Assembly: GCA_012517435.1 (NCBI GenBank)
Contig: JAAYUY010000083.1
Span: 1 to 40,181 of the forward strand
Reading direction: 5' to 3'
Source of the DNA: Sphingobacteriales bacterium
Lineage (GTDB): Bacteria; Bacteroidota; Bacteroidia; CAILMK01; JAAYUY01
DNA: 40,181 nucleotides
Shown: positions 6,348 to 40,162 of the stretch, in pieces
How positions within the stretch are numbered: the stretch's first letter is position 1
Layout of the letters: every line of letters starts with the position of its first letter
The notes under the pieces: model-generated
What the model was told of the DNA's origin: nothing
The model's input: only the letters and a program-made list of their open reading frames with translations
The model's database searches: none
Position numbers and translations under genes: made by a program

Positions 6348-8480
6348 TTATAGGTTATTTTTTGAGATTCCCAGTTTTTTCATTCTTGCTTCAAGTGTAG
6401 TGGGCTTGAGTCCCAGAATCTTAGCTGCACCCTTTTCACCCCGTATGCGGTAAGCTGTGGATTGAAGTACTTTTAAAATATGCTCTTTCTCAATGTTTTC
6501 AATGGTCATGTTTTCAATGTCCCGGATTGAATTTGAATGAAATAAATTTTCATTTATCACCAGTTCAGTACCCATACTGGTTATCATGGCTCTTTCAATC
6601 ACGTTTTCGAGTTCCCGGATATTTCCCGGCCAGTCGTACAACTGACATGCAGCCATGGTTTTATGGGAAACTGAGCTAAACTTTCGGCCTGTTTTATGTG
6701 AAAATTTATTGATGAAATAATTGACAAGCAGAGGGATGTCTTCCTTTCGCTGACGTAAGGGAGGCAGGGAAATAGGGAATACATTCAGGCGGTAAAATAA
6801 ATCAGGGCGGAAATTTCCCTTTTTTACTTCCTCGCTGAGGTTACGGTTGGTAGCGGCAATGACGCGCACATCTACCTTGAAAGTTTTGGGATTCCCAAGA
6901 CGTTCAAATTCACCATCCTGTAATACCCTCAAGAGTTTCGGCTGCAGTTCGATGGGTAATTCACCGATTTCATCCAGAAAAATGGTTCCTTTGTCTGCAA
7001 GTTCAAAGCGGCCTATTTTTTTGTAGAGCGCCCCGGTGAATGCCCCTTTTTCATACCCAAACAATTCACTTTCAATCAGAGAAGCAGGCAATGCCGCACA
7101 ATTGACTTTCACCAAGGGGTGTTTGTTGCGGTTGCTGATATTGTGTATTGCTCTGGCTATCAGCTCTTTACCTGTTCCTGTTTCTCCGAGAATCAATACC
7201 GTGGTGCGGGTATTTGCCACCCGTTCCACATTTGTCAGGATTTTTTTCATTTCGGCATTCTGGGTGATGATTTCCTCAAAATTATGCTCCAGTTTGATTT
7301 CATCCTGCAGATAGATGTTTTCTGCTTCCAGCTTGTTTTTTAAGGATTGAATCTCTGCCAAAGCATCTTTGAGTTTTTTTTCTGATTTCTTTTTCTCGGT
7401 TATGTCATGCACAAAGCCGACACTGAACGTATTTCCTTCAAATTCAAGTAAATTGGCAGATATTTCGACATCTCTCAATTCTCCGTTGCTTGTCTGGTGT
7501 ATGGTTTCAAGCAATAACCTTTTCTCACGGCAAAGCTGTTCCCAGATTTTTGACCAGCTTTTTTCATTCAGGGTAGGATTGATCTGCCAGACTTTCATCT
7601 GCTCAAGTTCTTGCCGGGAATATCCCCAGTATTCACAGGCATAATCGTTCACCCTGAAAAAAGTACCGTCTTTTTTCAACATGAAAATAGCCTGATGGGT
7701 ATTGTCGATTACGAAATGAGACAGACGTTTTTCTTCCTCAGATCTTTTTAATTCCATTAAGGTGTCCAATAAGCTTATTTCTGCCTTTTTTCTGGCGGTA
7801 ATGTCGCGGAAATGTTGTGCAACCTTTACCACTTCCCGGTTCTTGCCGAATATTGGATGGTAAAGTACATCCAGCCACAGGTCTTTTTCAGGCAGGTATT
7901 GTTCGACCATTTCAGTTTTTCCGCTCTGAAACACTTTTTTAATTTCATTCTCCTGATTGATGAGTGTCAGGCATTTCTTTCCAATGTAATCATCGTTTTC
8001 GATGCCAAGCAGTTTTTTGGCATTTTGGTTATAGTAGATTACATTCATCATATTGTCAATTAGCCCCAGAGGCTCATCAATGTAATTCAGGAAAGCTTCC
8101 AGCAGCAGGCTGCCTTCACGGGATAAAGAATTTGTAAAGCTGAGTTCAGAAATTTCGACTACCATGCCACAGAAATATTCTTTTCCGTCAATATCATATC
8201 TGGAAACATAAATTTCGACCGGAATAATTGTTTTATTTTTCGTGATGTGCCGGCTTTCAAAATAATGAAAACCTTTTTCAGAAATGGTAGAAGTAAGTTC
8301 TTCCCATTTAAGGGGCTGAAATCTCAGGCTAATGTCTTCAATGGTCAGTTTTGTCAGTTCATCCAGCGAATAGCCCAGATGCACGCAGGCTTTCTGGTTG
8401 GCATAAACTATTTTCATGCTTTTATCTGCCCAAAAAACAGGGAAAGGGATTTTTTCAATATCTGCAAAATGAAATGTCAT
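6348..8480 (-). CDS. PAS-domain sigma-54-dependent transcriptional activator
   Basis: Cytosolic regulator of 710 residues. Three PAS-type sensor domains occupy about residues 5-115, 125-235 and 250-365 (for example [19 protein letters not shown] and [24 protein letters not shown]). A short coiled coil follows at about 365-400. The AAA+ sigma-54 interaction domain spans about 400-635, with Walker A GETGTGKE, the GAFTGA loop, Walker [12 protein letters not shown] and the arginine-finger region [15 protein letters not shown] Fis-type helix-turn-helix ends the protein ([21 protein letters not shown]). The ATG at 8480 is chosen over an upstream TTG because a TATCTTTG -7 element lies between them. 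There is no receiver domain, so input is by PAS ligand or partner. No sigma-54 -24/-12 promoter was seen nearby, so its target genes are unknown. Confidence 0.93.
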
Positions 8481-8501
8481 GAATTGGTTTATTTTTTCCG
8501 G

Positions 8502-8509
8502 CAAAGATA
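8502..8509 (-). promoter_or_regulatory. -7 element that sets the start of the sigma-54 activator gene
   Basis: Minus-strand TATCTTTG matches TAnnTTTG, 21 bases before the ATG at 8480. It overlaps the alternative TTG start at 8504, which would therefore not be transcribed. I see no good -33 TTG. Confidence 0.45.
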
Positions 8510-8616
8510 AAACTCCAATATTTTGGAGAAGGAAAAAATATTTTTTTTTCGTATTAAGTTTTTTAAATAGATATTTGTTGACCTAAAAAATATCCCAACC
8601 AAAAAATTTTTACAAG

Positions 8617-9060
8617 ATGAAAAAGTTAAATTTTTGTATTCTTGTGTTGCTGATAAGCGTCAGCATCCATGCCAAAGCAGTTAATACTGGCTTATTTCAG
8701 ATTGATGAAAATCAAATCATGTCGGAAATGTCAGGGTTAACTTTACTTGAAGATTATGTAACGCAAAATCAAGGTGTTACGCTAAGTGAAATGCAGGCAA
8801 GCGGTCATATTTTATCTTACGGTATAAGTGACCAGCCTTCACCTTTCAACGATGAGATGACGTTTGAAGCCCCGTTAGGCATTCCATCATTTATCTGGGG
8901 GTTTTGTCTGGGATTACCCGGTGTGGCTGTCGTTTATTTTGTTTCCGAAGATAAAGATGAAACCAAAAAAGCAGTTTTTGGTTGTATTGCCAGCACAGTC
9001 GCCTATTCTGCCTGTTACCTCGTTTATTACATTGTTTATATAGCCTCGGCTATTCAATAG
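8617..9060 (+). CDS. Small exported membrane protein of unknown function, paralogue 1
   Basis: Unrecognised 147-residue protein. A signal peptide (MKK, hydrophobic core, IHAKA) ends near residue 21. An exported segment follows with FQIDENQIMSEMSGLTLLE and YVTQNQGVTLSEM. The C-terminal half is a hydrophobic hairpin: IPSFIWGFCLGLPGVAVVYF, a charged turn EDKDETKK, then a second helix. It is clearly homologous to the next gene, which shares the DExQI, LExYV, GVTLS and WGFCLG motifs in the same order. The hairpin recalls TM2-type proteins without the canonical TM2 residues. It precedes the first LolA-YidD cassette on the same strand and may be co-transcribed with it. Confidence 0.75.
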   Translation: MKKLNFCILVLLISVSIHAKAVNTGLFQIDENQIMSEMSGLTLLEDYVTQNQGVTLSEMQASGHILSYGISDQPSPFNDEMTFEAPLGIPSFIWGFCLGLPGVAVVYFVSEDKDETKKAVFGCIASTVAYSACYLVYYIVYIASAIQ

Positions 9061-9111
9061 TTTTATTTGGATTTGAATTTCAATCAGTTATCAATAATAA
9101 ACAGTTTTTTT

Positions 9112-9513
9112 ATGAAGAAAATTTTTTTTATGCTGCTTGTCATTTTTCTGACCAGTCTGCAATCAAAGGCTTACGACAGAAGCCTTTTTGATTATGATGA
9201 AATTCAGATCCGAAAAGAATTAAGTGAGCTGAATAGCCTTGAAAGTTATGTGTCGGCCAATGAGGGTGTTACCTTATCTCAGCTGAAAACTGAAAACAAC
9301 CGTTTGACTGCCAACATCAGCAATTCACCCATGATTTTTACTGGTTTCAACGGGGTAGCTGCCGACATTCCTGCTTTTTTATGGGGCTTTTGTCTGGGGC
9401 CTATCGGGGTCATTATTGTCTGGATTATTGATGAGGATGACCTGCTGATGTCAATTGTCGGCTGCCTGGTGTCTTCATTTTTATTCGGTGGAGGCTATCT
9501 GCTTGTTAACTGA
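9112..9513 (+). CDS. Small exported membrane protein of unknown function, paralogue 2
   Basis: Protein of 133 residues from the ATG at 9112; an upstream TTG at 9067 would add a non-hydrophobic leader before the signal peptide and is rejected. The signal peptide ends SLQSKA. The segment LFDYDEIQIRKELSEL, then LESYVSANEGVTLSQL, matches the preceding paralogue. The C-terminal hairpin starts IPAFLWGFCLGPIGVIIVW, has an acidic turn IDEDD, and ends in a second hydrophobic helix. The gene starts 51 bases after paralogue 1 and ends 43 bases before the LolA-like gene, suggesting one transcript. Function unknown; the conserved exported helix pair suggests a membrane-associated partner of the cassette. 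Confidence 0.75.
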   Translation: MKKIFFMLLVIFLTSLQSKAYDRSLFDYDEIQIRKELSELNSLESYVSANEGVTLSQLKTENNRLTANISNSPMIFTGFNGVAADIPAFLWGFCLGPIGVIIVWIIDEDDLLMSIVGCLVSSFLFGGGYLLVN

Positions 9514-9556: not shown

Positions 9557-10228
9557 TTGAACAGGCTTTTATTAATTGTTTTAATACTATTTTATCCTTC
9601 AGGCATCTTACTGGCTCAGTATTTTTACAGAATTGAGGCCGACATCAGCATTAAAACAAAAGCCGGAAATTTCAGCCAGCTGACCATGGGGAGGGTTTTT
9701 TACGATATAAATATTAAAAAACTGGTGTACAATATCACTTTTCCTGAAAAAGAAGTCTGGGTGGTGAAAGATTCAGTTGTCAGTACTTATGTGGGTGGAA
9801 AGCTGGTAAAAAAGACGACCACTGTTGCGCTGGTGCAAAGTACTGTTTTTCATCTTGCCCTCGAGGGCAGGTTATCTGATTATGGGCTTAGCAAAAGCCT
9901 CTATAAAATCACCAAAGTGGAAAAGGACGGGGATATGGTCATTACGACCTATTCTCCTCCACCTCAGATGAAAGGTTTTGGAGATATTGTCATTTCCACT
10001 AAAAACAAAAGCCTTTATGGAGTGGTTTTTTTCAGTGCCGACAAAAAAATCCTTAGTAAACAGATTGTCAAATCCTACACTACAGTCAGCGGATTAAAGT
10101 TTCCCGCTGAGATTATTCAGATTTATTACAAGGAGGGGAAAGAAAACTATCAGGTAATGACATTTAAAAACATCAAGGTAAACAATCAGCAAAATGAAAG
10201 TTTTTATCGTTATCCTGATGTGCGTTAG
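9557..10228 (+). CDS. LolA-like periplasmic protein, cassette copy 1
   Basis: Exported protein of 223 residues. The signal peptide is MNRLLLIVLILFYPSGILLAQ; it requires the TTG start at 9557, since the first in-frame ATG (about residue 44) would remove it. The body is a series of beta strands of LolA/LolB type: IKTKAGNFSQLTMGRVFYD, KLVYNITFPEKEVWVV, then STKNKSLYGVVFFS and TFKNIKVNNQ near the end. LolA folds carry lipids or lipoproteins in their hydrophobic half-barrel; that activity is inferred here. The last 35 bases overlap the start of the YidD-like gene. Its counterpart in copy 2 (20674-21387) has the same place in the gene order and the same strand pattern, but low sequence identity. 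Confidence 0.68.
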   Translation: MNRLLLIVLILFYPSGILLAQYFYRIEADISIKTKAGNFSQLTMGRVFYDINIKKLVYNITFPEKEVWVVKDSVVSTYVGGKLVKKTTTVALVQSTVFHLALEGRLSDYGLSKSLYKITKVEKDGDMVITTYSPPPQMKGFGDIVISTKNKSLYGVVFFSADKKILSKQIVKSYTTVSGLKFPAEIIQIYYKEGKENYQVMTFKNIKVNNQQNESFYRYPDVR

Positions 10229-10601
10229 TGTTTTTCAGCTGAAAGCCCAAACGTTGGAAGAGCTGAAAATACTGGAAAAAACGACAGAGCATGATGACAG
10301 GCCTTATTATCTGAAATTTGTCAGAAATCAGGGCAAAACGGGAGATAAAATAGTGTCTGCCATGTTTTTGTTTTATAAAAATTTTATTTCATCCCAGGAT
10401 TTTGTTTCATGCAGTTTTTATCCTTCCTGTTCCGAATATGCACTTCTGGTTCTAAAAAAACAGAATATTTTTACCGGCACCATGAATTTTTTTGACAGGC
10501 TGACCCGTTGCCATACCTTCACACCTCAGCAATATCATATCCATCCGGAATATCATCTGCAGATTGATTTACCCAAAAATGCGCGGTATGAAGATTTGTA
10601 A
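10194..10601 (+). CDS. yidD: YidD-like protein with signal peptide, cassette copy 1
   Basis: Protein of 135 residues. An N-terminal signal peptide (MKVFIVILMCVSVFQLKAQ) and a linker of about 45 residues precede a YidD (haemolytic, DUF37) domain: FLFYKNFISSQDFVSC, SFYPSCSEYA, a helix, then FFDRLTRCH. The three Cys positions typical of YidD are kept. Ordinary YidD is a cytoplasm-facing protein of about 70-85 residues that aids YidC-dependent insertion. The added signal peptide predicts a periplasmic or outward-facing domain instead, so the usual role is unlikely to apply unchanged. The ATG lies inside the upstream LolA-like gene, and the stop overlaps the next gene by 14 bases: tight translational coupling. 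Confidence 0.85.
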   Translation: MKVFIVILMCVSVFQLKAQTLEELKILEKTTEHDDRPYYLKFVRNQGKTGDKIVSAMFLFYKNFISSQDFVSCSFYPSCSEYALLVLKKQNIFTGTMNFFDRLTRCHTFTPQQYHIHPEYHLQIDLPKNARYEDL

Positions 10602-11418
10602 ACTGATCTTTTTCAGTACTTTACTCATTACAGCATTCATCAGCCAGGCTCAAAATCTGTTTGATGAGGAACACAGCAGACAATATGCTGAATTTTTATT
10701 TTCTGCCGGAAAGTATGAAGAAGCAAGGCAGGAATATAAGCGTCTGTTGTTATTGGATGATCTGAACACGGATGTCAGGCTCAGAGAGGTTCAGTGCTTA
10801 AGATACTCAGGTCAGCTCAGGGAAGCACTGAAAAGGATGGAAGATTACCGGAAGAAAGGTGGAATAATTAGCTATTCAATTGAAATTGAATATGTTAAGC
10901 TGTTATTACTTAACAGGGAATCGACAACTTTCAGGAAAGTTTACCTGCCGCAAAGTATACTGAACGATTCCGACAAGGTGGTTTTTATTCTTATTGATTA
11001 TTTACTGAATAAAGACTTTAAAAAAACTGATGAGTTCAGAGCATCTGAAAACTTTTCAAATCCTGCTTATAAAAGACTTACAGAAATAAACTCAGAATTG
11101 CAGTCAATCAGAATGAAAAATCCGCTTGTAGGTGGGCTTTTGTCAACAGCCATTCCGGGACTGGGGAAAATTTATTCAGGTTTCTGGCAAGACGGGCTTA
11201 TTTCGTTGTTATATACCGGAATGTCTGCCTTTCAGGCCTATCGAAGTTTTAAAAAAGATGGCATCAGGAGCATTTTTGGCTGGTATTCAGCCATGATGAC
11301 TGCCGCTTTTTATAGTGGTAATATATATGGCTCTGTGAAAGCAGTCAGTAAATACAATCAACTTAAAACCGAATTATTTAACAGAGAGATTGAAGAAATT
11401 CTGTTTAATTATTATTAG
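10588..11418 (+). CDS. TPR protein A with C-terminal PGLGKIYSG membrane hairpin, copy 1
   Basis: Exported protein of 276 residues from the ATG at 10588 (another in-frame ATG at 10579 is possible). The signal peptide is MKICKLIFFSTLLITAFISQAQ. TPR-like helices follow (about 25-130: AEFLFSAGKYEEARQEYKRL). The C-terminal region holds two or three membrane segments opening with AIPGLGKIYSGFWQDG and continuing AYRSFKKDGIRSI and SGNIYGSVKAV. This motif recalls TM2 and DUF5683-type hairpins. The copy-2 gene at 19361-20230 shares PGLGKIY, DG, KDGI and GNI-GS in the same order, so the two are homologous. It overlaps YidD upstream by 14 bases and protein B downstream by 29. Confidence 0.7.
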   Translation: MKICKLIFFSTLLITAFISQAQNLFDEEHSRQYAEFLFSAGKYEEARQEYKRLLLLDDLNTDVRLREVQCLRYSGQLREALKRMEDYRKKGGIISYSIEIEYVKLLLLNRESTTFRKVYLPQSILNDSDKVVFILIDYLLNKDFKKTDEFRASENFSNPAYKRLTEINSELQSIRMKNPLVGGLLSTAIPGLGKIYSGFWQDGLISLLYTGMSAFQAYRSFKKDGIRSIFGWYSAMMTAAFYSGNIYGSVKAVSKYNQLKTELFNREIEEILFNYY

Positions 11419-12238
11419 TATACTGGTTTTCAGTGATTTAAAAAGCCAGAGCATGAAGGAAACAACCTTCATGGCCGACAGTTTTTTTATTTCTCAGGAC
11501 TATGAAAATGCAGCCGACCTGTACCGAAGGATCATCTTTTTTTCTGTGGACAGTGTGAATTACCGGCATTACCTGAAGTTATCGGAATGTTTGTTTCATG
11601 CCGGCCATTATGACGAAGCACTTTATTATTACGATATTGCCTATAACAACCTGGAAAATGACACTTTACTCAATGAAATTTCTTTTCGTAAAACATTGAT
11701 ATACATTCTGTTAAAAGACTACAAACAGGCACGAAGAGAATTGCTGAATATTGATACCGCTCAGTCATTATCCGTTCAAAACAGGTATAATTTTTATCAT
11801 GGTGTCATCAGTTTCAGGGAAGGGAATTATACCCTGGCAGAATCATATTTTATTGCCTCCCTCGATAGTTTAACAAAAAAAGATTCAAACAAAATCAGAG
11901 AAATTTTCACATATCTTCCCAACGGAAAGCCAAATCCCAATACGGCAAAATGGCTGAGTATCATTTTCCCAGGTCTTGGGCAGTTGTATGCTGGTGATAT
12001 CAGAAATGCAGTAAATTCATTTATTCTGAATGGTATTTTAGGAGGATTGTTTGTTTATGTTTCATTAAAATACGGATTGCTGGATGCAGGATTGAGTATT
12101 TTCCCATGGTTTCAGCGTTATTATTTCGGAGGCTTCAAAAGAGCAGCACAAATTGCGTTAAAAAAACAGGAAGAGAAAAGAGAAGAGGTACTGAAGAAAA
12201 TATTTATTTTTTATCAGGGATATTTGGTGAATGAATAA
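11390..12238 (+). CDS. TPR protein B with C-terminal PGLGQLYAG membrane hairpin, copy 1
   Basis: Exported protein of 282 residues. The TTG start at 11390 is needed to keep the signal peptide (MKKFCLIIISILVFSDLKSQ). TPR-like helices span about 30-170 (ADSFFISQDYENAADLYRRI, then FHAGHYDEALYYYDIAY). The membrane region begins near residue 186 with FPGLGQLYAGD and ends with SIFPWFQRYYFGGFKRAAQIA and a basic coiled tail. It shares PGLG-YAG, a KY segment, GLS-F and YFGG-RA-Q-A with copy 2 (18550-19434), so these are a second homologous pair. A and B are themselves related in layout. Last gene of the overlapping four-gene cassette. Confidence 0.7.
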   Translation: MKKFCLIIISILVFSDLKSQSMKETTFMADSFFISQDYENAADLYRRIIFFSVDSVNYRHYLKLSECLFHAGHYDEALYYYDIAYNNLENDTLLNEISFRKTLIYILLKDYKQARRELLNIDTAQSLSVQNRYNFYHGVISFREGNYTLAESYFIASLDSLTKKDSNKIREIFTYLPNGKPNPNTAKWLSIIFPGLGQLYAGDIRNAVNSFILNGILGGLFVYVSLKYGLLDAGLSIFPWFQRYYFGGFKRAAQIALKKQEEKREEVLKKIFIFYQGYLVNE

Positions 12239-12253
12239 TTTACTTTATCTTGG
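12223..12253 (+). promoter_or_regulatory. Bacteroidetes-type promoter for the TM2-domain gene
   Basis: TTTG at 12223-12226, a 19-base spacer, then TATCTTGG at 12246-12253 (7 of 8 matches to TAnnTTTG). The ATG of the TM2 gene follows 29 bases later. The -33 element lies inside the end of the preceding gene. Confidence 0.45.
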
Positions 12254-12282
12254 CACTTTCAAAACCTATTAAAAATTAAGTC

Positions 12283-12696
12283 ATGAAAAACATTTTAGTG
12301 CTGATTTTAGCTTTTGTATTAACAGGATTTGCTTATGCAGATGGAGGAAAATACAAAATCAATGACGAAACTGTCAATCAGATGTTCACCAACGCCCCTG
12401 AAACAAATGGTTTCGATTTCACTGTAAGCCCTCTTACCGGAAATGCCTTACCGGAACAAATAACCGGAGAAAAAAATCCATGGGTGGCATGGGCGCTAAC
12501 ATTTACAGCTGGTGTTGGTATTTGTGGTATTCACAGGTTGTATTTGGGTACTAAAACCGGAGTCTTCATTGCCTATTTATGTACTGCCGGAGGATGTGGT
12601 ATCGTTCAGACTATTGACTGGGTAGTGCTATTGATAGGTGCCATGAACAAGGATATCAGCAAATACATCGACAATTCCAAGTTATTTATGTTCTGA
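12283..12696 (+). CDS. Exported TM2-domain protein
   Basis: Protein of 137 residues. A signal peptide ends FAYADG near residue 22, then an exported stretch of about 45 residues. A TM2 domain follows: KNPWVAWALTFTAGVGICGIHRLYLGTKTGVFIAY, a Gly-Cys-rich turn, and a second helix ending VQTIDWVVLLIGAMNKD. The G-HRLYLG and DW motifs are the family hallmarks. The role of TM2 proteins in bacteria is not known. It lies between cassette copy 1 and the giant surface protein, with its own predicted promoter, and is a third small exported double-helix protein in this region. Confidence 0.88.
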   Translation: MKNILVLILAFVLTGFAYADGGKYKINDETVNQMFTNAPETNGFDFTVSPLTGNALPEQITGEKNPWVAWALTFTAGVGICGIHRLYLGTKTGVFIAYLCTAGGCGIVQTIDWVVLLIGAMNKDISKYIDNSKLFMF

Positions 12697-12769
12697 TGAC
12701 AGGATGAACTTCCACATCAAGGTAAATAATGTGGGAAAATCTTGTAGAACTTTAATAAAAAAATATTAA

Positions 12770-12800
12770 TTGCATATTTTCGATTTGTATGTTATATTTG
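12770..12800 (+). promoter_or_regulatory. Bacteroidetes-type promoter for the giant surface protein gene
   Basis: TTG at 12770-12772, a 20-base spacer, then TATATTTG at 12793-12800, a perfect TAnnTTTG. A transcript starting about 7 bases later would have a leader of about 35 bases before the ATG at 12842. It would also exclude the alternative TTG start at 12812 from having a usable leader. Confidence 0.6.
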
Positions 12801-12841
12801 GTGTCTGATTAATGTTGTTAAATCGTTTAAAATTCAAGTAT

Positions 12842-15800
12842 ATGTCAAGAGTTTACAGATTAGGTTTCTTAATTTTGACAGGTCTTCTTGCAATAAGTTC
12901 ATTTCACCTGAATGCACAGACCAATTTGGCTTTATCGGCAACTGCCAGTCACTCAGGCGGTGGAACCGGAACTTACGGGCCTCAAAACTATAATGACGGA
13001 TATTATTGCAATGGATCCGGAACCTGTTGGGGATGGGTAAGTACATCGGGAAATCCATCAACCTCATCATGGATTGAATATCAGTGGACTACCAGCCAGA
13101 CATTTGATGAAATTAAAGTGTATATTAATAGTACAACCAACAGAGCCATGCATGGCTTTAAAGTTCAGTACTGGAACGGGAGCACTTATGTTGATCATCA
13201 TACCTTTTATATTGCTCCTGCCAATCTGACCCTGAATTACGTGGATAAATTTTCTTCACCCATCACCTCTACAAGGCTGAGACTCACCGATATTTATACA
13301 ACCGGCTCTCAGGCATCCAATCCAATGAATGAAGAAATAGAAGTCAGGCTGACTACTTTGCCCGGTCTTGATGTCGAAATGAACAGGATAGAAATTCCTG
13401 TTACCTGGTCTGTAGGGAAAAATCCACTGAAAGTGGTTTACCGGAACAACCGAAAAGACACCATAAAATGGGTCGATTTAGGATGGCGGTTAAATTGGGA
13501 TGTCCCATCTCTTGTAAATAACTATACCAAAACAGTTCTCCCCGGAGCTGAACAAGCATATCAGTTTGCTGATTCTGTTTACCTTCCGGCTAAAGGCAGT
13601 TATAATTTCAGGGTGTGGGTTTCATCTCCCAACGATTCTTTCCCAGACAATGTAACCTCAAATGATACTTTAATTTTAAGCATTTGCACAGCTATGTCAG
13701 GTACCTACACGATTGGTGGTACAGGGGCAAACTATCCTACTTTTAATGCGGCTGTTACCGATTTGTTGAAATGCGGTATATCCGGGCCTGTGGTATTTAA
13801 CGTGGCGTCAGGAACTTATAATGAGCGGGTAGTTATTCCACAGATTTTAGGTGCCTCACCCACCAATACCATTACTTTTAAAGGAGCGGATAAAGACAAT
13901 TGTATTTTGAACTATAACAGTACTTCCACATCAACCATAGCAACCCTCTATCTTAACGGGGCTGATTATATTAAATTTCAGAATATGACCATTCGTGCAG
14001 GTGGAACCAGTTACGGCTACAGCGTTTTATTAAATAATACAGCTAATTACAACACTTTTTACAATTGTAATCTGATTGTTCCCGTTTTATCAAGCACCTA
14101 TTGTATTCCTATTCTTGCCTCCAGTTCCGAATCAAGTTACAGTGGTTATGCCAATAATGCCAATTACAACACTTTTGAAAACTGCTTAATCAGCGGTGGT
14201 TACTGGGGTGCTTATATGACTGGCCCATCAACTTCAATATGGTGCTATGGAAATAAATTTATAGGGAATACATTTGTCAACCAGTATTACTCGGGAATTT
14301 ACAATTATTACCAGCGGGAAGTGTTAATCAAAAACAACAGGATTATTACCAATAATTCCTCACTGACTGACTCATGGGGCATTTATCATAATTATTGTGT
14401 AAAATCCACTATTGACGGTAATATCATAAATCCCGGATGGATAGGCATGCAGCTTTACTATGAAAACTATTACAGCACTTCTGACAGTAGTCTGATTATC
14501 AATAATATGATTTACAACTTCAAAGAAACTGGCGATCAGGTTGGAATTTACCTTTATAACTATAACTATAACATGAAGGTGTATAACAATACTGTTTATT
14601 GCACAGGTACTACCACATCGACCGCTTATGGAAGAAGTTGTATTTTCGTTTACTACTGTTATGCAAGTTCAATTCAGAACAATATTCTTTACAGTAAGAA
14701 TACAACTTTATTACTGAGCTTTTATCCTTATCCTTACTCAGCTTCTCAGGTGGATTACAATGACTACATTTATGAAAATACCAACAATTCCAATATGTTC
14801 TATAGCAACAGTGTATATTATTACGACCTGGCAGGCTGGAAAACATCTACCTATAATCTTGTGACACCACACGATAACAATAGCTGGGAAAATATTGATC
14901 CCAAATTTGTATCTTCTACAGATCCTCATCTGAATTCAAATTATCCTCCCATTTACGGGAAAACCATTTCATTCATTACGCATGATGTGGATGGAGACGT
15001 AAGGTGTCCTTATTCCACAACCATTGGTGCAGATGAATCGAAATATCCGGTTCCCAGGCCCAAAGCCTTTTTTGTATCAGATGATACAATCTGCCACAGC
15101 ACACCTATCGTATTTTACAATACAGCAGATCCAAAAGCCAAACAGGGTTATTGGTGGTATTTCAATGGTAACTTTGTTTCCAAAAACTTTAACTGGACAC
15201 ATACATTTCCTGCCGGAACAGGTTATGATACGGTTTCTTTGGTAATAATTAACTGCGGAGGTGCTGATACCTTTACAAAATATGTATTCGTTGACAATCC
15301 CAGCAAAGCTCCGAAAGCTGATTTCATCGCAGACCTAAACGAAACCGAAGTGATGTATCCTGTGAATTTCAGCGATTTAAGCATCAACTGTCCCTCAGGA
15401 TGGAAATGGAAGGTCTATCCGGCAACCATCTCACATCCGATTCTTGGAATTGTACCTACTTATTCATTTGTTACTCCGACAAATGAAGGAAGTCAGAATC
15501 CGGTTATCAGTTTTGATTATCCGGGTGTTTATGATGTATGGCTGATAGCTGAAAATGGGATAGGAAAAGATTCCATTGGCAAACAGAAATATGTTAAAGT
15601 TAATCCTGATTACTGGATGTGTTTCTGGGCAGATCCTTCTACAAAGAAGAGCATGGAAGGAACGCTGTATGATGATGGCGGGCCGGCCATGGATTATGGC
15701 AATAACAAAAACTGTGATCTGGCTCTTACCCCATGTGCAAAACAGTTAGACCTGACATTCAAGAGCTTTAACCTGCAGAGTGGCGACTATTTACAGGTAT

Positions 15801-18493
15801 TTGACGGTACTGATGCCAACGGAACTCCTTTGTGGGATGTTTCTGCTTATGGCACAACCGGTTTGACAGGAAACATGACCAATCCAGCGTTTAAATCAGT
15901 GCTGACATCAAATTCAGGAAAAATGTACATTAAGTTTACTACCAACTCGTCAACTGTCAGCTCAGGCTTTGAAGCAAAATGGTCTGGTGTTTATGGTAAT
16001 TATGATAAGCCGGTGGCATCCTTTAATTGTCCTGATACCCTATGTCTGGGAGTAACGGCATATTTTGAAAATACAAGTAAGTCGCTTCCTGATGCTTCTT
16101 ATGAATGGTATTTTACCGACCCGTATTTTGCAGAATCATTTGATAAAAATCCGGGCTACAAGTTTGCATTTGACGGAACTTATACCGTGAAATTAAAGGT
16201 AATTGATTGCGGTGGTGAATCAGAATATACGAAAGACATTGTGGTGGTCGCTCCGTTCAATGCTCCTGTTCCAAACTTTACAGCTGATAACGTCAGACCG
16301 GTTAAAGGAACTGATATTGTTAACTTCAGCGGTGAAGTTTACGGATGTGCTGACGAGTGGAAATGGACAATTACTCCTGCTAACTTTACTAATATCAATG
16401 GCTATCCCAATACGCAATTCCCTCAGATCAGGTTCAACGATACCGGTTGCTATGATGTAAAGCTGGTGACCGGATACAAGGGAATGTATGACAGTATTAC
16501 CAGAAAATGCTTTATCAAGGCCATCCAGTATTGCCAGCCAACGGTTGATTTGTTGACTCAGGATATTGGCATGACTAAAGTTATACTTTCAGACATCAGC
16601 AATTCAACGCCAACCGGGAAAACTGAATATTCAGATTATACACTCACCCACAGTACTTATCTGGATGTAGAAGCTACCTATGATTTACAGGTAGAAAGAT
16701 CTTCAAATTTCAATACCGTTGACCGGAAAGCATGGATAGACTGGAACATTGACGGAGATTTTGACGATCCGGGTGAGTTGATAGGACACGAACAAAATTC
16801 GAGTGCACTCGTCTGGAAAACAAGTTTCAAAGTACCGTGGAATGCTACCTTAGGCCCGACCAGAATGAGAATTTCTACTGTGCTGGGTGGTATGGCAAAC
16901 AATCCATGCGGAAGCCGTTTATTTGGTGAAGTTGAAGATTATAAAGTGATTGTCAGACCTGATGGAACTCCTCCGGTGATTACAATGAAGGGACAGGATA
17001 CTGTAGTTCTTGAGCAATGTACGCCTTCCTACACCGATGCCGGTGCCACCGCAATGGATAATATTGACGGAAATCTGACTTCTGCCATCGTTACAACAGG
17101 TAGTGTTGACCTTAAGAAAGATGGTACCTATTATATAAGATATAATGTATCGGACAACTCAGGCAATAAAGCTGTGGAGAAAGTCAGGACTGTCATTGTG
17201 AAAAAGGATAATGTCCCGCCAGTCTTTAGCCTGAAAGGCAATGCTAAAATGATTTGGGAAGTATTGAACCCATGGGTTGATCCGGGTTACAATGTAAATG
17301 ATACCTGCTCAGGTGTTGATACAGTGAATATTACCGGGACTGTTGACGGAAGCAAGCTCGGGGTCTATCAACTGGAATATACAGCTTACGATAAAGCCGG
17401 AAATTCAGCCGTTCTCACCAGAGAAGTGACTGTGGCTGATACTTCAGATCCTGTTGTTTGGCTGAATGGTTATGCAGTAAATTATGTGGAAGTTCATACT
17501 CCATTTACTGATTCAGGACTTACAGTAAAAGACAATTATTGCTTTAACAATGATATTAAAGTAATGGGAAGTTATAATGTTCACAAATTAGGCACCTACA
17601 CACTAACTTATGAAGTCAGGGATTGTGCCGGAAATGGTCCTGTTATTATGAACAGAGTTATTGTGGTATATGATTCAACTGCTCCGGTGGTTACTTCAAG
17701 CCCGTATCAGTCGGGAGATAAAATCCTTGTAGATGTTTACCACAATATTGACGAATATTTACCAATACTGAACATTACCGACAATTATTATCAGATAAAT
17801 GAAATTACCGTAAATAAATATGGCAGCTACTACACACAGTTCCCCAACGGTGAAGCCACCACGCTTGGTAATTTCAAAGTGGAAATCAAAGTGATTGATG
17901 GCAGTGGAAATGAGGCTTATCTGTATTTCGATATAGATGTAGTTGACAGAGAAAAACCGGTTATTACTTTGAATGGTCCTCAGATTATTCAGATTTGCCG
18001 GTTTAAAGAAGTTCCTGACTCTTTACTCACTGCAGAAGTATCTGATAATTACTATACTAACGTAAACATTACCAAAACCGGAACATATTATACAGATTAC
18101 CTGAATACAAAGAAAGAAGGTTTGTTTACGGTTCGCTACAATGCAGTGGACGGTTCAAACAATCAGGCAATTGAAGTAGTCAGGTACATTGATGTCATTT
18201 ACGATCCGCAAAAGTGTAATGTCGGAGTTAATGAGCCATTAAACGAAAATCTGGTAAATATTTATCCCAATCCTGCAACCCATCTGGTAAATGTTGAAGT
18301 TAACCTTTCCGGAGGGGAAGACTTAACCATCAGCATTATCAACAGCGTTGGGGAAGTAGTGATTGAAAGGATGATGAAATCGACAGGCGGAATTTATACC
18401 TTCGACCTGAGTGAATTTGCAGGTGGAATCTATATGGTTCGCATCAGCACAAACGGCAATACGATTGTCAGGCCATTGATGCTGAGCAGGTAA
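12842..18493 (+). CDS. Giant multidomain surface protein with T9SS sorting domain (1883 aa)
   Basis: Exported protein secreted by the type IX system and presumably surface-bound. Domains in order, numbered from the ATG at 12842: signal peptide 1-26 (SSFHLNAQ); discoidin-like carbohydrate-binding fold about 28-170; CARDB-like Ig fold about 176-283; a long right-handed parallel beta-helix rich in Tyr and Asn about 286-736; two PKD-like domains to 921; a CUB-like domain about 923-1055 (FKSFNLQSGDYLQVFDGTD); two more PKD-like domains to 1228; a GEVED domain about 1229-1375 (WIDWNIDGDFDDPGEL, GEVEDYKV); five DUF5011 Ig-like repeats about 1376-1790 (each with PVI, TD-G, DN, Y--RD-AGN patterns); and a sorting domain about 1793-1883 (IYPNPATHLVNVEV, GGIYMVRIS). 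An adhesin or glycan-binding role is likely. It lies between the two inverted cassettes. Confidence 0.92.
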   Translation: MSRVYRLGFLILTGLLAISSFHLNAQTNLALSATASHSGGGTGTYGPQNYNDGYYCNGSGTCWGWVSTSGNPSTSSWIEYQWTTSQTFDEIKVYINSTTNRAMHGFKVQYWNGSTYVDHHTFYIAPANLTLNYVDKFSSPITSTRLRLTDIYTTGSQASNPMNEEIEVRLTTLPGLDVEMNRIEIPVTWSVGKNPLKVVYRNNRKDTIKWVDLGWRLNWDVPSLVNNYTKTVLPGAEQAYQFADSVYLPAKGSYNFRVWVSSPNDSFPDNVTSNDTLILSICTAMSGTYTIGGTGANYPTFNAAVTDLLKCGISGPVVFNVASGTYNERVVIPQILGASPTNTITFKGADKDNCILNYNSTSTSTIATLYLNGADYIKFQNMTIRAGGTSYGYSVLLNNTANYNTFYNCNLIVPVLSSTYCIPILASSSESSYSGYANNANYNTFENCLISGGYWGAYMTGPSTSIWCYGNKFIGNTFVNQYYSGIYNYYQREVLIKNNRIITNNSSLTDSWGIYHNYCVKSTIDGNIINPGWIGMQLYYENYYSTSDSSLIINNMIYNFKETGDQVGIYLYNYNYNMKVYNNTVYCTGTTTSTAYGRSCIFVYYCYASSIQNNILYSKNTTLLLSFYPYPYSASQVDYNDYIYENTNNSNMFYSNSVYYYDLAGWKTSTYNLVTPHDNNSWENIDPKFVSSTDPHLNSNYPPIYGKTISFITHDVDGDVRCPYSTTIGADESKYPVPRPKAFFVSDDTICHSTPIVFYNTADPKAKQGYWWYFNGNFVSKNFNWTHTFPAGTGYDTVSLVIINCGGADTFTKYVFVDNPSKAPKADFIADLNETEVMYPVNFSDLSINCPSGWKWKVYPATISHPILGIVPTYSFVTPTNEGSQNPVISFDYPGVYDVWLIAENGIGKDSIGKQKYVKVNPDYWMCFWADPSTKKSMEGTLYDDGGPAMDYGNNKNCDLALTPCAKQLDLTFKSFNLQSGDYLQVFDGTDANGTPLWDVSAYGTTGLTGNMTNPAFKSVLTSNSGKMYIKFTTNSSTVSSGFEAKWSGVYGNYDKPVASFNCPDTLCLGVTAYFENTSKSLPDASYEWYFTDPYFAESFDKNPGYKFAFDGTYTVKLKVIDCGGESEYTKDIVVVAPFNAPVPNFTADNVRPVKGTDIVNFSGEVYGCADEWKWTITPANFTNINGYPNTQFPQIRFNDTGCYDVKLVTGYKGMYDSITRKCFIKAIQYCQPTVDLLTQDIGMTKVILSDISNSTPTGKTEYSDYTLTHSTYLDVEATYDLQVERSSNFNTVDRKAWIDWNIDGDFDDPGELIGHEQNSSALVWKTSFKVPWNATLGPTRMRISTVLGGMANNPCGSRLFGEVEDYKVIVRPDGTPPVITMKGQDTVVLEQCTPSYTDAGATAMDNIDGNLTSAIVTTGSVDLKKDGTYYIRYNVSDNSGNKAVEKVRTVIVKKDNVPPVFSLKGNAKMIWEVLNPWVDPGYNVNDTCSGVDTVNITGTVDGSKLGVYQLEYTAYDKAGNSAVLTREVTVADTSDPVVWLNGYAVNYVEVHTPFTDSGLTVKDNYCFNNDIKVMGSYNVHKLGTYTLTYEVRDCAGNGPVIMNRVIVVYDSTAPVVTSSPYQSGDKILVDVYHNIDEYLPILNITDNYYQINEITVNKYGSYYTQFPNGEATTLGNFKVEIKVIDGSGNEAYLYFDIDVVDREKPVITLNGPQIIQICRFKEVPDSLLTAEVSDNYYTNVNITKTGTYYTDYLNTKKEGLFTVRYNAVDGSNNQAIEVVRYIDVIYDPQKCNVGVNEPLNENLVNIYPNPATHLVNVEVNLSGGEDLTISIINSVGEVVIERMMKSTGGIYTFDLSEFAGGIYMVRISTNGNTIVRPLMLSR

Positions 18494-18515
18494 CCACTTG
18501 CCTGAAAACAGTTAT

Positions 18516-18548
18516 AAACCCTGTTGGAAGTAATTTCCGACAGGGTTT
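18516..18548 (+). terminator. Rho-independent terminator after the giant gene
   Basis: A 14-base stem (AAACCCTGTTGGAA with TTCCGACAGGGTTT, one T-G pair) with loop GTAAT, followed by a T-run. It starts 22 bases after the giant gene stop. The stop of the converging B2 gene sits 2 bases beyond, so the hairpin may end transcripts from both directions, though the T-run favours the plus strand. Confidence 0.85.
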
Positions 18549-18549
18549 T

Positions 18550-19434
18550 TTATTGAAATAAAAGCTGGCGTATCCGGAGATTAAATGCTTCTGTTTTTAA
18601 TGCATTGTGCTTTTCAGCCAGTTGATGTGCTCTTCTGATACCTCCGAAGTAAAACTTCTGAAACATGGAAAGGCCGATAAAATACCCTGTAAAATAGTAT
18701 TTTTTGAATATTCCGTAAATTCCGGCAGTTAATGAACCGGCTATGATTGTAAAACTCAGAATCCCTTCTTCCGGATAACCTGCATAAATATGTCCAAGAC
18801 CGGGAAGTATTGCCGACATAGTTTCTGCCCGATCAGGGTTTTTTATTGATGGGAGGTTTTTATTGGTATAAAGCTCATTGATTTTTTCTCTGAAAGACTG
18901 ACAGTTTGTATCATTCAATTCCAGCCACGAGGCATATTCCAGTGCTGCTGCTTTTGCTTCCTGATATTTTGAAAGCTCATTCAATGACAGAATCAGAACA
19001 GGAAGAAGACTTTTATAATATGCTGTGTCCTGAAGGAAAAACCTGCACTGCGTAATCTGTGAAATAGCTTCGGTAAAATCTCCGGATAAGTAGGCATTGA
19101 GACTTAATTGTTGGCGGAAAAGAAAATGCAGACTATCAGGCATAATGGAAAAATCTGCTTTCTGAAGTGTTTCAAAAGCATTTTTATATTTTCCCATCAT
19201 TTTGAGTGCTTCTGCCTGGCGGTAGAGTAGTAAATTATTTTGTTCAAGGTCGGAAGATTCATATTGAATACGGAGGTATTCAAGACAGGCCTCTTCATAT
19301 AATCCTGCTTTCATCAGGCTGTCGGCATGATGAACTGAAGCCGGTACCTGAGAATGAAGCTCAGAAATACATATTGCGAACAGGAATATGAAGGTCAAAC
19401 AATATATTGTAGTCAATCTGGCCATAAAATTCAT
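18550..19434 (-). CDS. TPR protein B with C-terminal PGLGHIYAG membrane hairpin, copy 2
   Basis: Exported protein of 294 residues; ATG at 19434, with an alternative at 19425. The signal peptide ends near residue 29 (SELHSQ). TPR-like helices follow (ADSLMKAGLYEEACLEYLRI, then MMGKYKNAFETLQKADF). The C-terminal membrane region begins ILPGLGHIYAGYPEEG and ends FIGLSMFQKFYFGGIRRAHQLAEKH. Compared with copy 1 (11390-12238) the PGLG-YAG, KKY, GLS-F and FYFGG-RA-Q-A motifs are in the same order and at similar spacing. The start lies well inside the upstream A2 gene (65-74 bases overlap). It is the last gene of cassette 2 and ends at the shared terminator. Confidence 0.7.
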   Translation of the reverse strand: MNFMARLTTIYCLTFIFLFAICISELHSQVPASVHHADSLMKAGLYEEACLEYLRIQYESSDLEQNNLLLYRQAEALKMMGKYKNAFETLQKADFSIMPDSLHFLFRQQLSLNAYLSGDFTEAISQITQCRFFLQDTAYYKSLLPVLILSLNELSKYQEAKAAALEYASWLELNDTNCQSFREKINELYTNKNLPSIKNPDRAETMSAILPGLGHIYAGYPEEGILSFTIIAGSLTAGIYGIFKKYYFTGYFIGLSMFQKFYFGGIRRAHQLAEKHNALKTEAFNLRIRQLLFQ

Positions 19435-20230
19435 TTTTTTCGAGATTTACGCTGTAGTAACTTCCGAAAATATTTCCGAGATAATAAGTCAAAAATAATC
19501 CGCTGAAAAACAAGGTTTTAATGTCTTTGATACCATCTTTCCGATAATTTTCAAAGCTGACAAGTCCCAGAGAGCTGGTAATGAGAAAGGCTGCCACTCC
19601 ATCTCCGGGCCTGCCGGCATAAATTTTTCCAAGCCCGGGTATAAATGCTGAAAGTATTGCTGCTGTCATCTTTTTCCTTTCTTTGAAAGAAGAAATCAAT
19701 GAGGCATATTTGTCAAGCTTTGTTACTTCATTTGAAATTAAAAACCAGTTGGTATCCAGTTCTTTTCTGATGGTTTGATAATCGTCCAGATTTCTTTCCA
19801 GCAAGCTAAGTCCACTTAATAAAAACTGGCGCATCTTTAACTCATCTTCACGACTGAATACAGCATTTTCAAGCAAATGACGGGCTTCGTCATATTGTTT
19901 CTGATAGGAGTAGCAAATAAATCCGAAAAATCTGGCCTTTGCATAAGAACTCAGCGAAGTGTCGGTCAGGGCAAAATACAAGGCAGCGGAATCAAGTTTT
20001 TTCTGGCTGTAAAAACACCATCCTTTCGTAAAATAAAGAGAATCAATGATTTTTGGTGTCAAATCAGGTCTGATAAGAAGGCGGTTACATAAATTGACAG
20101 CTGATTCAAATTCATTGTTTTTTACCAGATAACTGATAAAACTTACTTCACTTTCCACTGAATCTGAAGGATTCTCTGCCTTAAGAAAAAAGCCGGACAA
20201 GAAGATTGATAATGTCAGTAAAAACTTCAT
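19361..20230 (-). CDS. TPR protein A with C-terminal PGLGKIYAG membrane hairpin, copy 2
   Basis: Exported protein of 289 residues from the ATG at 20230, which begins the signal peptide MKFLLTLSIFLSGFFLKAEN and lies 4 bases after the YidD stop; an ATG at 20251 would add seven residues. Helical repeats of TPR type cover about 25-180. The membrane part begins ILSAFIPGLGKIYAGRPGDG and goes on with NYRKDGIKDI and YYLGNIFGSYYSV, which match the same positions of the copy-1 A protein (10588-11418). It overlaps the next gene, B2. The role is unknown; the repeats suggest protein contacts and the hairpin suggests membrane anchoring. Confidence 0.7.
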   Translation of the reverse strand: MKFLLTLSIFLSGFFLKAENPSDSVESEVSFISYLVKNNEFESAVNLCNRLLIRPDLTPKIIDSLYFTKGWCFYSQKKLDSAALYFALTDTSLSSYAKARFFGFICYSYQKQYDEARHLLENAVFSREDELKMRQFLLSGLSLLERNLDDYQTIRKELDTNWFLISNEVTKLDKYASLISSFKERKKMTAAILSAFIPGLGKIYAGRPGDGVAAFLITSSLGLVSFENYRKDGIKDIKTLFFSGLFLTYYLGNIFGSYYSVNLEKNEFYGQIDYNILFDLHIPVRNMYF

Positions 20231-20234
20231 CCGC

Positions 20235-20693
20235 TTATTTGTGGTAAACATCAGTGGTTTCCGTCACTTTATTTGTTTTCTCGTCTATCCGGATAGGAGA
20301 AATATCCTGAGCTGCAATTTTATTGCATCGGGTCAAACGGTCAGCCGAGCAAATAATTCCCTTTATCAAACCGTATCTTCTAATAAGCTCAACACTGAAC
20401 CGGCTACAGGAGGGATGATACAGGCAACTGGCTGAAATCTGCGGACTAATGACTTTTTGATAGGCATACATGGCCCCTCCAAATATCAGGCTGACAGGAT
20501 TGTATTTGATAAAAGCATTTTCTGACTCCGAAAATAAATATTTAACGTCTCTTTGGTAATCGGAAGGAGTTATAAAATGATGCGAAAGGAGTATTCTTTT
20601 ATCCATACTGTCAATTTGGGCAAAGGCAGTGCTTATTCCCATGCTGAGCATAAAGAAAATTAATAACACAACCTTATTTTGCAATTTTTGCAT
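20235..20693 (-). CDS. yidD: YidD-like protein with signal peptide, cassette copy 2
   Basis: Protein of 152 residues from the ATG at 20693, which begins MQKLQNKVVLLIFFMLSMG and a signal peptide ending TAFAQ; an upstream non-ATG extension adds only an unlikely leader. An N-terminal linker of about 45 residues is followed by a YidD domain: GGAMYAYQKVISPQISASC, LYHPSCSRFS, a helix, then ADRLTRCN. All three Cys positions are kept, and a Lys/Thr-rich tail follows. Same secreted layout as copy 1 at roughly one-third identity over the domain by eye, so the duplication is old. The first 20 bases overlap the end of the LolA-like gene. Confidence 0.84.
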   Translation of the reverse strand: MQKLQNKVVLLIFFMLSMGISTAFAQIDSMDKRILLSHHFITPSDYQRDVKYLFSESENAFIKYNPVSLIFGGAMYAYQKVISPQISASCLYHPSCSRFSVELIRRYGLIKGIICSADRLTRCNKIAAQDISPIRIDEKTNKVTETTDVYHK

Positions 20694-21387
20694 TTTCAGG
20701 TACTTTAAAATTAAAATACGGACTGTTGGCCTGCTCATTTAAACGGACATCTGAATAAACAATCCGGTTCACAACCGAATCGCCATCAGGTAAATAATTG
20801 AATTCAACCACTTTTAAAGGCAGCTTAACCGACTGAATCTGAGAATATTGGTAATAATATATTTTTTTTACCAATTTAAAGGAAGCATTGTAGTAGCCAA
20901 GGTAAATGGGAACGTAATTTTCAGAAACAAGTTCAACCTTTGAAAATTCCTTGGCAAGGGAAAAGGGTGCTTCCCATGTGGTAATCAGCATTTTGTCTTC
21001 ATATTTTGTTTCAGAAAGTGTAAAGCCGAGATCTTTCAGACCCAGGTCGCTGGTTTTGTTCGAAAGGAAATAATACAATAAGCTTTTTTCAGTATCGAAA
21101 GCAACACTTTGGGTGAGATACACTTCATTTTTTGCAGGATAATAAATTTTCGCTTCTCCTTTTGCATTCGAAATGAAGACACATTCAATGGGTTTAAGAT
21201 AATGAATGGTCATGATGCCTGTCGATGGCTTGTAGAAAATTTCAGCTGTTACGGTAGATTTTTTTCCGTTTTTCAGGCTCTGGCTTTCCATATTGAGGCT
21301 GATTTTTTCAAGAGGGACTATAGCGGAAAGAAACAGCAGGATGATCAGTGCCAAAAAGGAAATACGAAAAAAGGAAAAATGCTTCAT
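20674..21387 (-). CDS. LolA-like periplasmic protein, cassette copy 2
   Basis: Protein of 237 residues with an N-terminal signal or anchor helix (about 7-24) and then beta-rich LolA-like sequence: KKSTVTAEIFYKPSTGIMTI, CVFISNAKGEAKIYYPAKN, YVPIYLGYYNASFKLV, and a terminal NIV-type strand YSDVRLNEQ. The closing VRLNEQANSPYFNF parallels IKVNNQQNESFYRY of copy 1 (9557-10228). ATG start at 21387; a TAATTTTG -7-like element lies at 21412-21419. First gene of cassette 2, and its stop overlaps the YidD start. A lipid or lipoprotein carrier role would follow from the fold but is not shown. Confidence 0.68.
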   Translation of the reverse strand: MKHFSFFRISFLALIILLFLSAIVPLEKISLNMESQSLKNGKKSTVTAEIFYKPSTGIMTIHYLKPIECVFISNAKGEAKIYYPAKNEVYLTQSVAFDTEKSLLYYFLSNKTSDLGLKDLGFTLSETKYEDKMLITTWEAPFSLAKEFSKVELVSENYVPIYLGYYNASFKLVKKIYYYQYSQIQSVKLPLKVVEFNYLPDGDSVVNRIVYSDVRLNEQANSPYFNFKVPENAKIAK

Positions 21388-39900: not shown

Positions 39901-40162
39901 AACATGGTACTTTCCCATGCTTAAACTCATTTTTTGGTGTACCAGATGATGGAAATTCTTCAGTTCCTGTTAGCACTGGGTTGCAAACCAATGTATTACA
40001 TTGCGCCTGCACATGAGCAGGATAAAAATACCAGAGTAGAAAAAGTATAAAATTGGCAGGCATAAATAAAGTAAGTTTTTTCGCTAATCCATATTGTTTT
40101 TGATTAACAACGCAAGTGAGACATTTTATCGGATACCAAATAAAATGATATAAGGAACTCAC
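36920..40162 (-). CDS. Large exported Cys-rich multidomain protein (about 1080 aa), start uncertain
   Basis: Long coding region of up to 1080 residues. A hydrophobic signal segment ends YPAHVQAQ near residue 54. A 200-residue lectin-like or MAM-like fold follows (about 55-250: HYQFCFTANKSTDFLFFTLE, RIDDVEIFEV). Several PKD or SprB-type Ig repeats cover about 250-780 (LGNDTIICGSFSKTLIA, SGGTYSVIVKDSNGC, QSGTYWLKVF). A parallel beta-helix makes up most of the rest (VERGAKLIIDSS, DWEGIEVQG). Unlike its neighbour it ends without a recognisable T9SS domain (QIQGNFYHDHTK). The 5' end lies near the poly-G edge; the GTG at 40162 and an ATG at 40063 are possible starts, and the true one may differ. 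Confidence 0.8.
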   Translation of the reverse strand: MSSLYHFIWYPIKCLTCVVNQKQYGLAKKLTLFMPANFILFLLWYFYPAHVQAQCNTLVCNPVLTGTEEFPSSGTPKNEFKHGKVPCWQNVLGTSDIVSFPVSSPTAGRVGQWYFINQYGSGIGHEAFGQYINIDSGKTYLISFMGIRDFNTDSGINGNIEIYLRDYSNSYNTIDPDWSAYVKNLAISGATKIYYTQPGSSWQHYQFCFTANKSTDFLFFTLEYQIPSYSYNSDFWVRIDDVEIFEVDADAGPDKFITCDSPCVWIGTNCNPPPLQADIKFKWYIAGNSTPFDTNATTLVCPTTTTQYVLKVEMDSCLAFDTVLVTVTDTSKPLVNLGNDTIICGSFSKTLIASNNPDYSYLWSTSQTSSSINVSSGGTYSVIVKDSNGCTGYDTINITARPEFKVFPEDTVVCKYSFPITLKIYPKQYDSLRWFDHSTNLQTDVYGAGDYWVLVWDSMCFDSAWIHVDTLGPPFLFIGNDRVFCEGGSDTICDSNIVLYNKSLIKYRWDTENGDTTPCIYVNESRTYRLLGYTIDSNCVDTAEVNVTILSAPPIDCPDFHLCKNDPPLTISGCNPEPGDYYHPLLDTFDIFNPALFREGTHYIIYTYKYNDQNPECYTSANVNVTIHPNPEVYGDTSMIVCITAPEFEMPFGGETGGDYSIDGVSSSSVFNPANEGTGEHICRYWVTNQWGCTDTAEMKILVIDSFYAWIDTLDFICHLPGTILYAHVSDTGCFHYEWSTNETTDSIVVTQSGTYWLKVFNCLGGCMDSVGIDVYMTDFCDDSIPADWTSAKRFPLPNWSGSYKKLSDITKIVDADLIISQGFTLHLENVDFIMRNCSKIIVERGAKLIIDSSCIGSCDWEGIEVQGNIDGCSDDTTYSQGYLKITNSTITGANIAIYAGKRDRSGRDVFYGGGIVHAHHNHFENNYVDIMIQEWAFNMICACSTSSGQAFHHEIVSNYFGPLKGSYVCSDFVDPVIEEVNNFYDTFAGPSTACNFPYNADPLIRCHIIDLSPYPDIFWSNQPPSLPPAWQVLNGACCRALWDSRYLPFVNGNNCTYNNTFFDGCKNQIQGNFYHDHTK

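Follow-up and report, generated by a model that had tools for sequence, protein, structure and literature searches.

We analysed a 40,181-nucleotide contig of a Sphingobacteriales bacterium (JAAYUY010000083.1, assembly GCA_012517435.1; this whole stretch is hereafter called the window), where a sequence-only reading had described a four-gene cassette repeated in mirror image around a giant surface protein. All eight open reading frames (ORFs) were confirmed with the coordinates and strands given there. One cassette lies at 9557-12238 on the plus strand and the other at 21387-18550 on the minus strand, and both have the order LolA-like, YidD, TPR-A, TPR-B (TPR, tetratricopeptide repeat; hereafter Lo, Y, A, and B). 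The plus-strand cassette, which we call type 1, consists of LolA-like 1 (9557-10228), a putative exported carrier of the LolA superfamily; YidD1 (10194-10601), which carries an N-terminal Sec signal peptide; TPR-A1 (10564-11418, likely start 10579 or 10588); and TPR-B1 (11390-12238). The minus-strand cassette, type 2, consists of LolA-like 2 (20674-21387), the likewise Sec-exported YidD2 (20235-20738, likely start 20693), TPR-A2 (19361-20251, likely start 20230), and TPR-B2 (18550-19434, likely start 19425). The gene overlaps are genuine in both cassettes, and the lengths of certain ORFs vary with the start codon chosen. Two small exported proteins encoded just ahead of the type-1 cassette on the same strand, S1 (8617-9060) and S2 (9067-9513, likely ATG start 9112), belong to it, and an exported TM2-domain protein, T (12283-12696, plus strand), goes with the type-2 cassette as its convergent neighbor.

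Each gene of one cassette is homologous to its partner in the other, as had been proposed. With E-values scaled to a nominal 100-Mb database, BLASTP matched A1 to A2 at 5e-9, B1 to B2 at 5e-8, YidD1 to YidD2 at 1e-4, and the two LolA-like proteins at 5e-3; this last pair is the weakest by sequence, and its homology was confirmed through shared family membership and a high-confidence model of the LolA fold. The two cassettes are only 15 to 23% identical to each other, compared with 30 to 51% between either and the same-type cassette of another genus (L009). In a tree of 135 concatenated YidD-A-B sets, a branch with support of 1.0 has all 47 cassettes with S on one side and, on the other, all 26 that lack S and possess both the LolA-like gene and T. 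By this tree, types 1 and 2 are separate ancient clades, each widespread across Bacteroidota. The tree and the identities rule out a recent inverted duplication as the origin of the mirror. Of the two origins offered in the sequence-only reading, an old duplication is supported. The convergent pair recurs in another genus of the same family (genome G003, locus L009), where it encloses three T genes, and a Bacteroidales metagenome-assembled genome (MAG; L085) provides a third case. Side-by-side cassettes are also found in divergent (L051) and tandem (L100 and L090) orientation, and in other genomes (G002 and G004) the two types lie on separate contigs. The only YidD of the host genome beyond the cassettes is the canonical copy adjoining rnpA, and its canonical, housekeeping LolA lies on another contig. 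An origin from a mobile element was rejected: a plasmid search with A2 gave no match, and among the phage matches listed for YidD2, coverage was only 34 to 56%, with both annotated ones overlapping an rnpA-linked yidD.

The cassette is common well beyond this contig. A profile search for A in 296 Bacteroidia genomes (E ≤ 1e-7) matched 73, of which we judged 63 (about one fifth of the sample) to be genuine and 10 to be weak hits confined to the TPR region, almost always of far longer proteins; this boundary was chosen post hoc with the list in view, and the gap is nonetheless clear. At least two YidD genes were present in 63 of 63 genomes with A, as opposed to 10 of 233 without it (Fisher p = 3e-54). 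The ten genomes with at least two YidD genes and no detectable TPR-A are G040, G080, G093, G110, G171, G182, G202, G219, G236, and G293. Across this sample, the window, and the order to which it belongs, A followed by B stood next to YidD in 70 of 75 YidD-centered loci, and at least A did so in all 75; overlapping junctions were found between Lo and Y in 40 of 44 cases, between Y and A in 64 of 75, and between A and B in 67 of 69. A scan of named genomes gave 80 loci, most of them in this order, in Cytophagales, Saprospiria, Flavobacteriales, Bacteroidales, Ignavibacteria, WOR-3, Spirochaetales, and Aminicenantes. The carriers include Jiulongibacter, Emticicia, Cyclobacterium, Saprospiraceae, Bacteroidales and Flavobacteriales MAGs, Melioribacter and other Ignavibacteria, and MAGs labeled Chlorobiota, WOR-3, Spirochaetales, and Aminicenantes. 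Altogether, we annotated 135 YidD-A-B cassettes from Bacteroidota, Ignavibacteria, WOR-3, and other groups, with order and overlaps maintained.

Because the order recurs in more than 100 loci, a chance origin is excluded. The cassette genes are inherited as a unit, and we are close to certain that this unit is a functional one. The linkage counts bear out the proposal that the cassette is an envelope unit under selection, its order, overlaps, and signal peptides having been kept; across Bacteroidota genomes, the families are linked in a kept order, and we saw neither scattered families nor non-homologous pairs. No general conserved neighbors beyond S and T emerged across the cassette loci, only lineage-specific ones. 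In one family (f51), the cassette is split, with the LolA-like gene, YidD, and one TPR gene together and the other TPR gene elsewhere (L040, L041, and L043 with L054, L055, and L060). Some cassette genes appear broken or truncated, with frameshifts or a short YidD, in Cyclobacterium (L130 and L137) and at L070:5398-6094, by decay or assembly error.

The two YidD proteins score well above the cut-offs of PF01809 (62.7 and 63.5 bits versus 27; E-values of 2.8e-17 and 1.6e-17 for YidD1 and YidD2) and of TIGR00278 (59.7 and 57.9 bits versus 40). In an alignment of 71 exported YidD sequences, a Tyr, two Ser, two Cys, and an Arg are invariant, a third Cys is present in 61, and the Asp of a DRLTRC motif is nearly invariant. 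Canonical YidD is recognized by the lack of a signal peptide, an rnpA-yidD-yidC neighborhood, and a C-terminal GGxDPVP tail; the cassette proteins have a signal peptide, lie apart from rnpA and yidC, and lack the tail. A sequence profile search found no solved structure for YidD. A simple heuristic called Sec signal peptides, usually ending in AQ, in almost every Lo, Y, A, B, S, or T protein, and a signal-peptidase-like site with this conserved AQ-type junction is present in 68 of 78 cassette YidDs. Since all six families begin with Sec signal peptides, a periplasmic location of the YidD domain is strongly supported at the level of sequence.

For the LolA-like protein, sequence profiles were marginal (the family alignment, A7, has a PDB profile match to 3buu, and Pfam LolA_like is found in 17 of its 52 members), so the assignment rests on the fold. 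The AlphaFold2 model of LolA-like 2 (predicted local distance difference test [pLDDT] score of 94.7) shows a β-barrel with lid helices, and Foldseek matched it to Pseudomonas LolA (2w7q, E = 1.5e-11), NE2245, and Porphyromonas gingivalis LolA3 (9tp6, E = 5e-10); the template modeling score against 3buu was 0.57. The confident model and these matches show a predicted LolA fold and membership in the LolA superfamily, confirming the carrier fold that had been claimed. Neither LolCDE nor LolB recurred within about 6 kb of the cassette in more than 100 loci.

TPR-A and TPR-B are paralogous to one another (99.8% probability in hhalign) and share one architecture: TPR repeats follow the signal peptide, and the membrane segment at the C-terminus contains a PGLG-x-Y-x-G motif, which reads PGLGKIY in A1 and PGLGQLYAG in B1. 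The AlphaFold2 model of TPR-A2 (pLDDT 95.4) predicts a solenoid of four TPR repeats followed by a membrane hairpin, comprising short helices at residues 194-211, a helix at 215-239, and a 52-residue helix at 244-295. A Lys/Arg-rich loop between the two long helices would fit a hairpin in the inner membrane with the TPRs in the periplasm. PDB matches to A were confined to its TPRs, with none at E ≤ 0.001, and similarity of the TPR proteins to DUF5683 is weak. A natural fusion of A and B into one 476-residue protein, found in one genome (L039:6487-7917), is good evidence that the two act together.

S is a small, exported two-helix family (alignment A5) with no informative Pfam match; S1, which matches the S family profile and ends in a hydrophobic hairpin, and S2 are 39% identical. 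A is present in 22 of the 24 genomes with S (p = 1e-14), a count that includes genomes carrying S apart from the cassette, and within cassette genomes S is sometimes both unlinked and multicopy. While Lo, Y, A, and B remain single-copy per cassette, S varies from one to five copies, five of them upstream of one cassette (L111), and T reaches three (L009). The S proteins of Emticicia (L096, L103, and L110) are lipoprotein forms with the lipobox FFVAC|Q, and most S copies have no lipobox. T, correctly recognized in the sequence-only reading as a TM2 protein, matches PF05154 at 48.2 bits versus a cut-off of 27.9 (1.3e-12; alignment A6). At each of the 26 type-2 loci with T but without S, it is convergent to the cassette; this linkage is real, and T as a cassette-specific partner was nevertheless rejected for its weak association at the genome level. 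The C-terminus of T carries a conserved aromatic tail (DNPKFFMW or similar), seemingly unusual for an α-helical membrane protein. We also rejected S and T as one family, as an hhalign probability of 95% stemmed from the signal peptides and fell to 13% for the mature parts. Directly upstream of S1, a sigma-54 activator with three PAS domains is encoded at 6348-8504 on the minus strand, and a similar-sized gene occupies the same position ahead of a type-1 cassette in L010; no -24/-12 sigma-54 site was found at 8500-8625, between the activator and S1. Elsewhere in the window, a 1,080-residue protein at 36920-40162 (minus strand) had no Pfam match at 1e-5.

We propose that the cassette encodes a single periplasmic trafficking or assembly module, present here in two anciently diverged versions, and give this reading as a whole a probability of about 0.42. 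A and B would form a membrane-anchored receptor, probably in the inner membrane with the TPRs in the periplasm, which may recruit the periplasmic YidD, and the LolA-fold protein would shield a hydrophobic cargo and hand it on, either through the periplasm or into a membrane. The likeliest type-1 cargo would be the small hydrophobic S proteins, with T as a weaker candidate for type 2. That the module handles some hydrophobic cargo is moderately probable; that S and T are this cargo is a tentative suggestion that we would not bet on. The most specific version, in which exported YidD, the LolA-fold carrier, and the TPR pair move small α-helical hairpin membrane proteins through the periplasm and insert them from the periplasmic side, perhaps into the outer membrane, seems rather unlikely. 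Several points weigh against the module. Genes for an ATPase, LolB, or LolCDE are absent from it, which leaves extraction without an energy source and the cargo without an acceptor, and certain Y-A-B cassettes have no LolA-like gene, S, or T nearby. T is found in 41 of 63 genomes with A and in 115 of 233 without (p = 0.03), and with S-T homology unestablished once signal peptides are removed, a single cargo class for both types is unproven. The signal peptides were called by a heuristic and not by SignalP. In favor of the module, the distance matrices of the four cassette proteins are correlated (0.85 to 0.91), and part of this reflects shared phylogeny.

Somewhat unlikely, and yet deserving serious weight, is a dedicated lipid or lipoprotein pathway, in which A, B, and YidD would make up a platform in the inner membrane and the LolA-like protein would carry one particular lipid, pigment, or lipoprotein away from it; S and T would be accessory membrane subunits and not cargo. 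The LolA fold itself and the Emticicia lipobox fit this, as does the proposal that LolA paralogues can be dedicated to a single pathway, put forward for LolA2/LolB2 and flexirubin in Flavobacterium (PMC11885536); however, genes for lipid, pigment, or MMPL transport do not generally recur beside the cassette, which also lacks a LolB-like acceptor and an ABC transporter, and most S copies have no lipobox. The variable number of S copies, their occurrence outside the cassette in the same genomes, and their co-occurrence with it could also suit an envelope structure built of multiple S or T subunits, with the four cassette proteins as assembly factors in the manner of pilus-type systems. We consider this improbable, as no Pfam similarity of S to pilins or other structural subunits stands out and no outer-membrane pore or usher is encoded. 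If the N-terminal segments were instead uncleaved signal anchors, the YidD domain would be cytoplasmic and the protein simply an extra conventional YidD, as its Pfam and NCBIfam labels say; short hydrophobic N-termini are indeed no proof of cleavage by themselves. The AQ-type junctions, the apparent export of the other three proteins that these operons encode (LolA-like, A, and B), and the missing tail make this scarcely credible.

The remaining alternative, suggested in the sequence-only reading, is that the cassette assists the type IX secretion system (T9SS) or the export of surface proteins. A T9SS cargo does lie between the two copies: the giant protein (12812-18493, plus strand; 1,893 codons from the first ATG, 1,883 from the eleventh codon) ends in a T9SS sorting domain (PF18962, 3e-11). 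One such tail is unremarkable here because the host genome has 112 of them in 3.19 Mb, and tails near cassettes, at about 20 per Mb, are below the host average. The other mirror loci, L009 and L085, have no giant between their cassettes, and adjacency of T9SS cargo is not conserved across loci; the giant is incidental and no conserved part of the cassette. PF18962 matched none of Lo, Y, A, B, and T and was not among the matches listed for the S family. SprA is present in 62 of 63 cassette-bearing Bacteroidia and in 18 of 20 broader carriers, but also in 289 of the 296 sampled genomes regardless of the cassette, so this sample cannot test an association, and about 227 SprA-positive genomes have no cassette. 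The Spirochaetales and Aminicenantes carriers, both MAGs, gave no SprA match. No link of the cassette with the giant or with the export of surface proteins is supported, and a T9SS role appears very improbable.

We found no description of a secreted YidD, or of one joined with LolA and TPR genes, in the open-access literature searched, subscription literature lying outside the search. We regard the gene system as new, though built from known folds. Annotations universally present YidD as assisting YidC in inserting proteins into the inner membrane; this name is probably wrong for the exported subfamily, which in turn offers a simple way to probe the function of the YidD domain as such. With carriage by about one fifth of the sampled Bacteroidia (63 of 296) and by other phyla, a common envelope process appears to be undescribed; the cassette suggests a route for hydrophobic cargo in the cell envelope, and the S proteins provide a testable cargo hypothesis.

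Among known systems, the Lol pathway shares with the cassette a Sec-exported periplasmic carrier of the predicted LolA fold. LolA proteins, P. gingivalis LolA3 among them, are the top structural matches, at only 12 to 14% identity to the best solved LolA structures. The diversity of LolA1, LolA2, LolA3, and LolB in Bacteroidota was described in 2025-2026 (PMC11885536 and PMC13103446), with no mention of YidD in either paper; unlike in the Lol pathway, the gene for the cassette carrier stands alongside genes for an exported YidD and for two membrane proteins with TPRs. Canonical YidD, which acts at the SecYEG/YidC insertion site as stated in a review (PMC8082313, citing Yu et al. 2011), has the core Tyr, Ser, Cys, SCS, Gly, and Arg positions in common with cassette YidD and differs in the signal peptide, the DRLTRC Asp, the tail, and the neighborhood. 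T shares its TM2 domain with the PF05154 proteins and differs from them in its export, in a motif conserved at the N-terminus, and in its aromatic C-terminus. Finally, the DUF5683/TM2-like TPR proteins with a PGLGQ hairpin and the TPR anchors YfgM and LapB also attach a TPR solenoid to a membrane segment, whereas cassette A combines an exported N-terminal TPR domain with a C-terminal hairpin whose last helix is predicted to span 52 residues.

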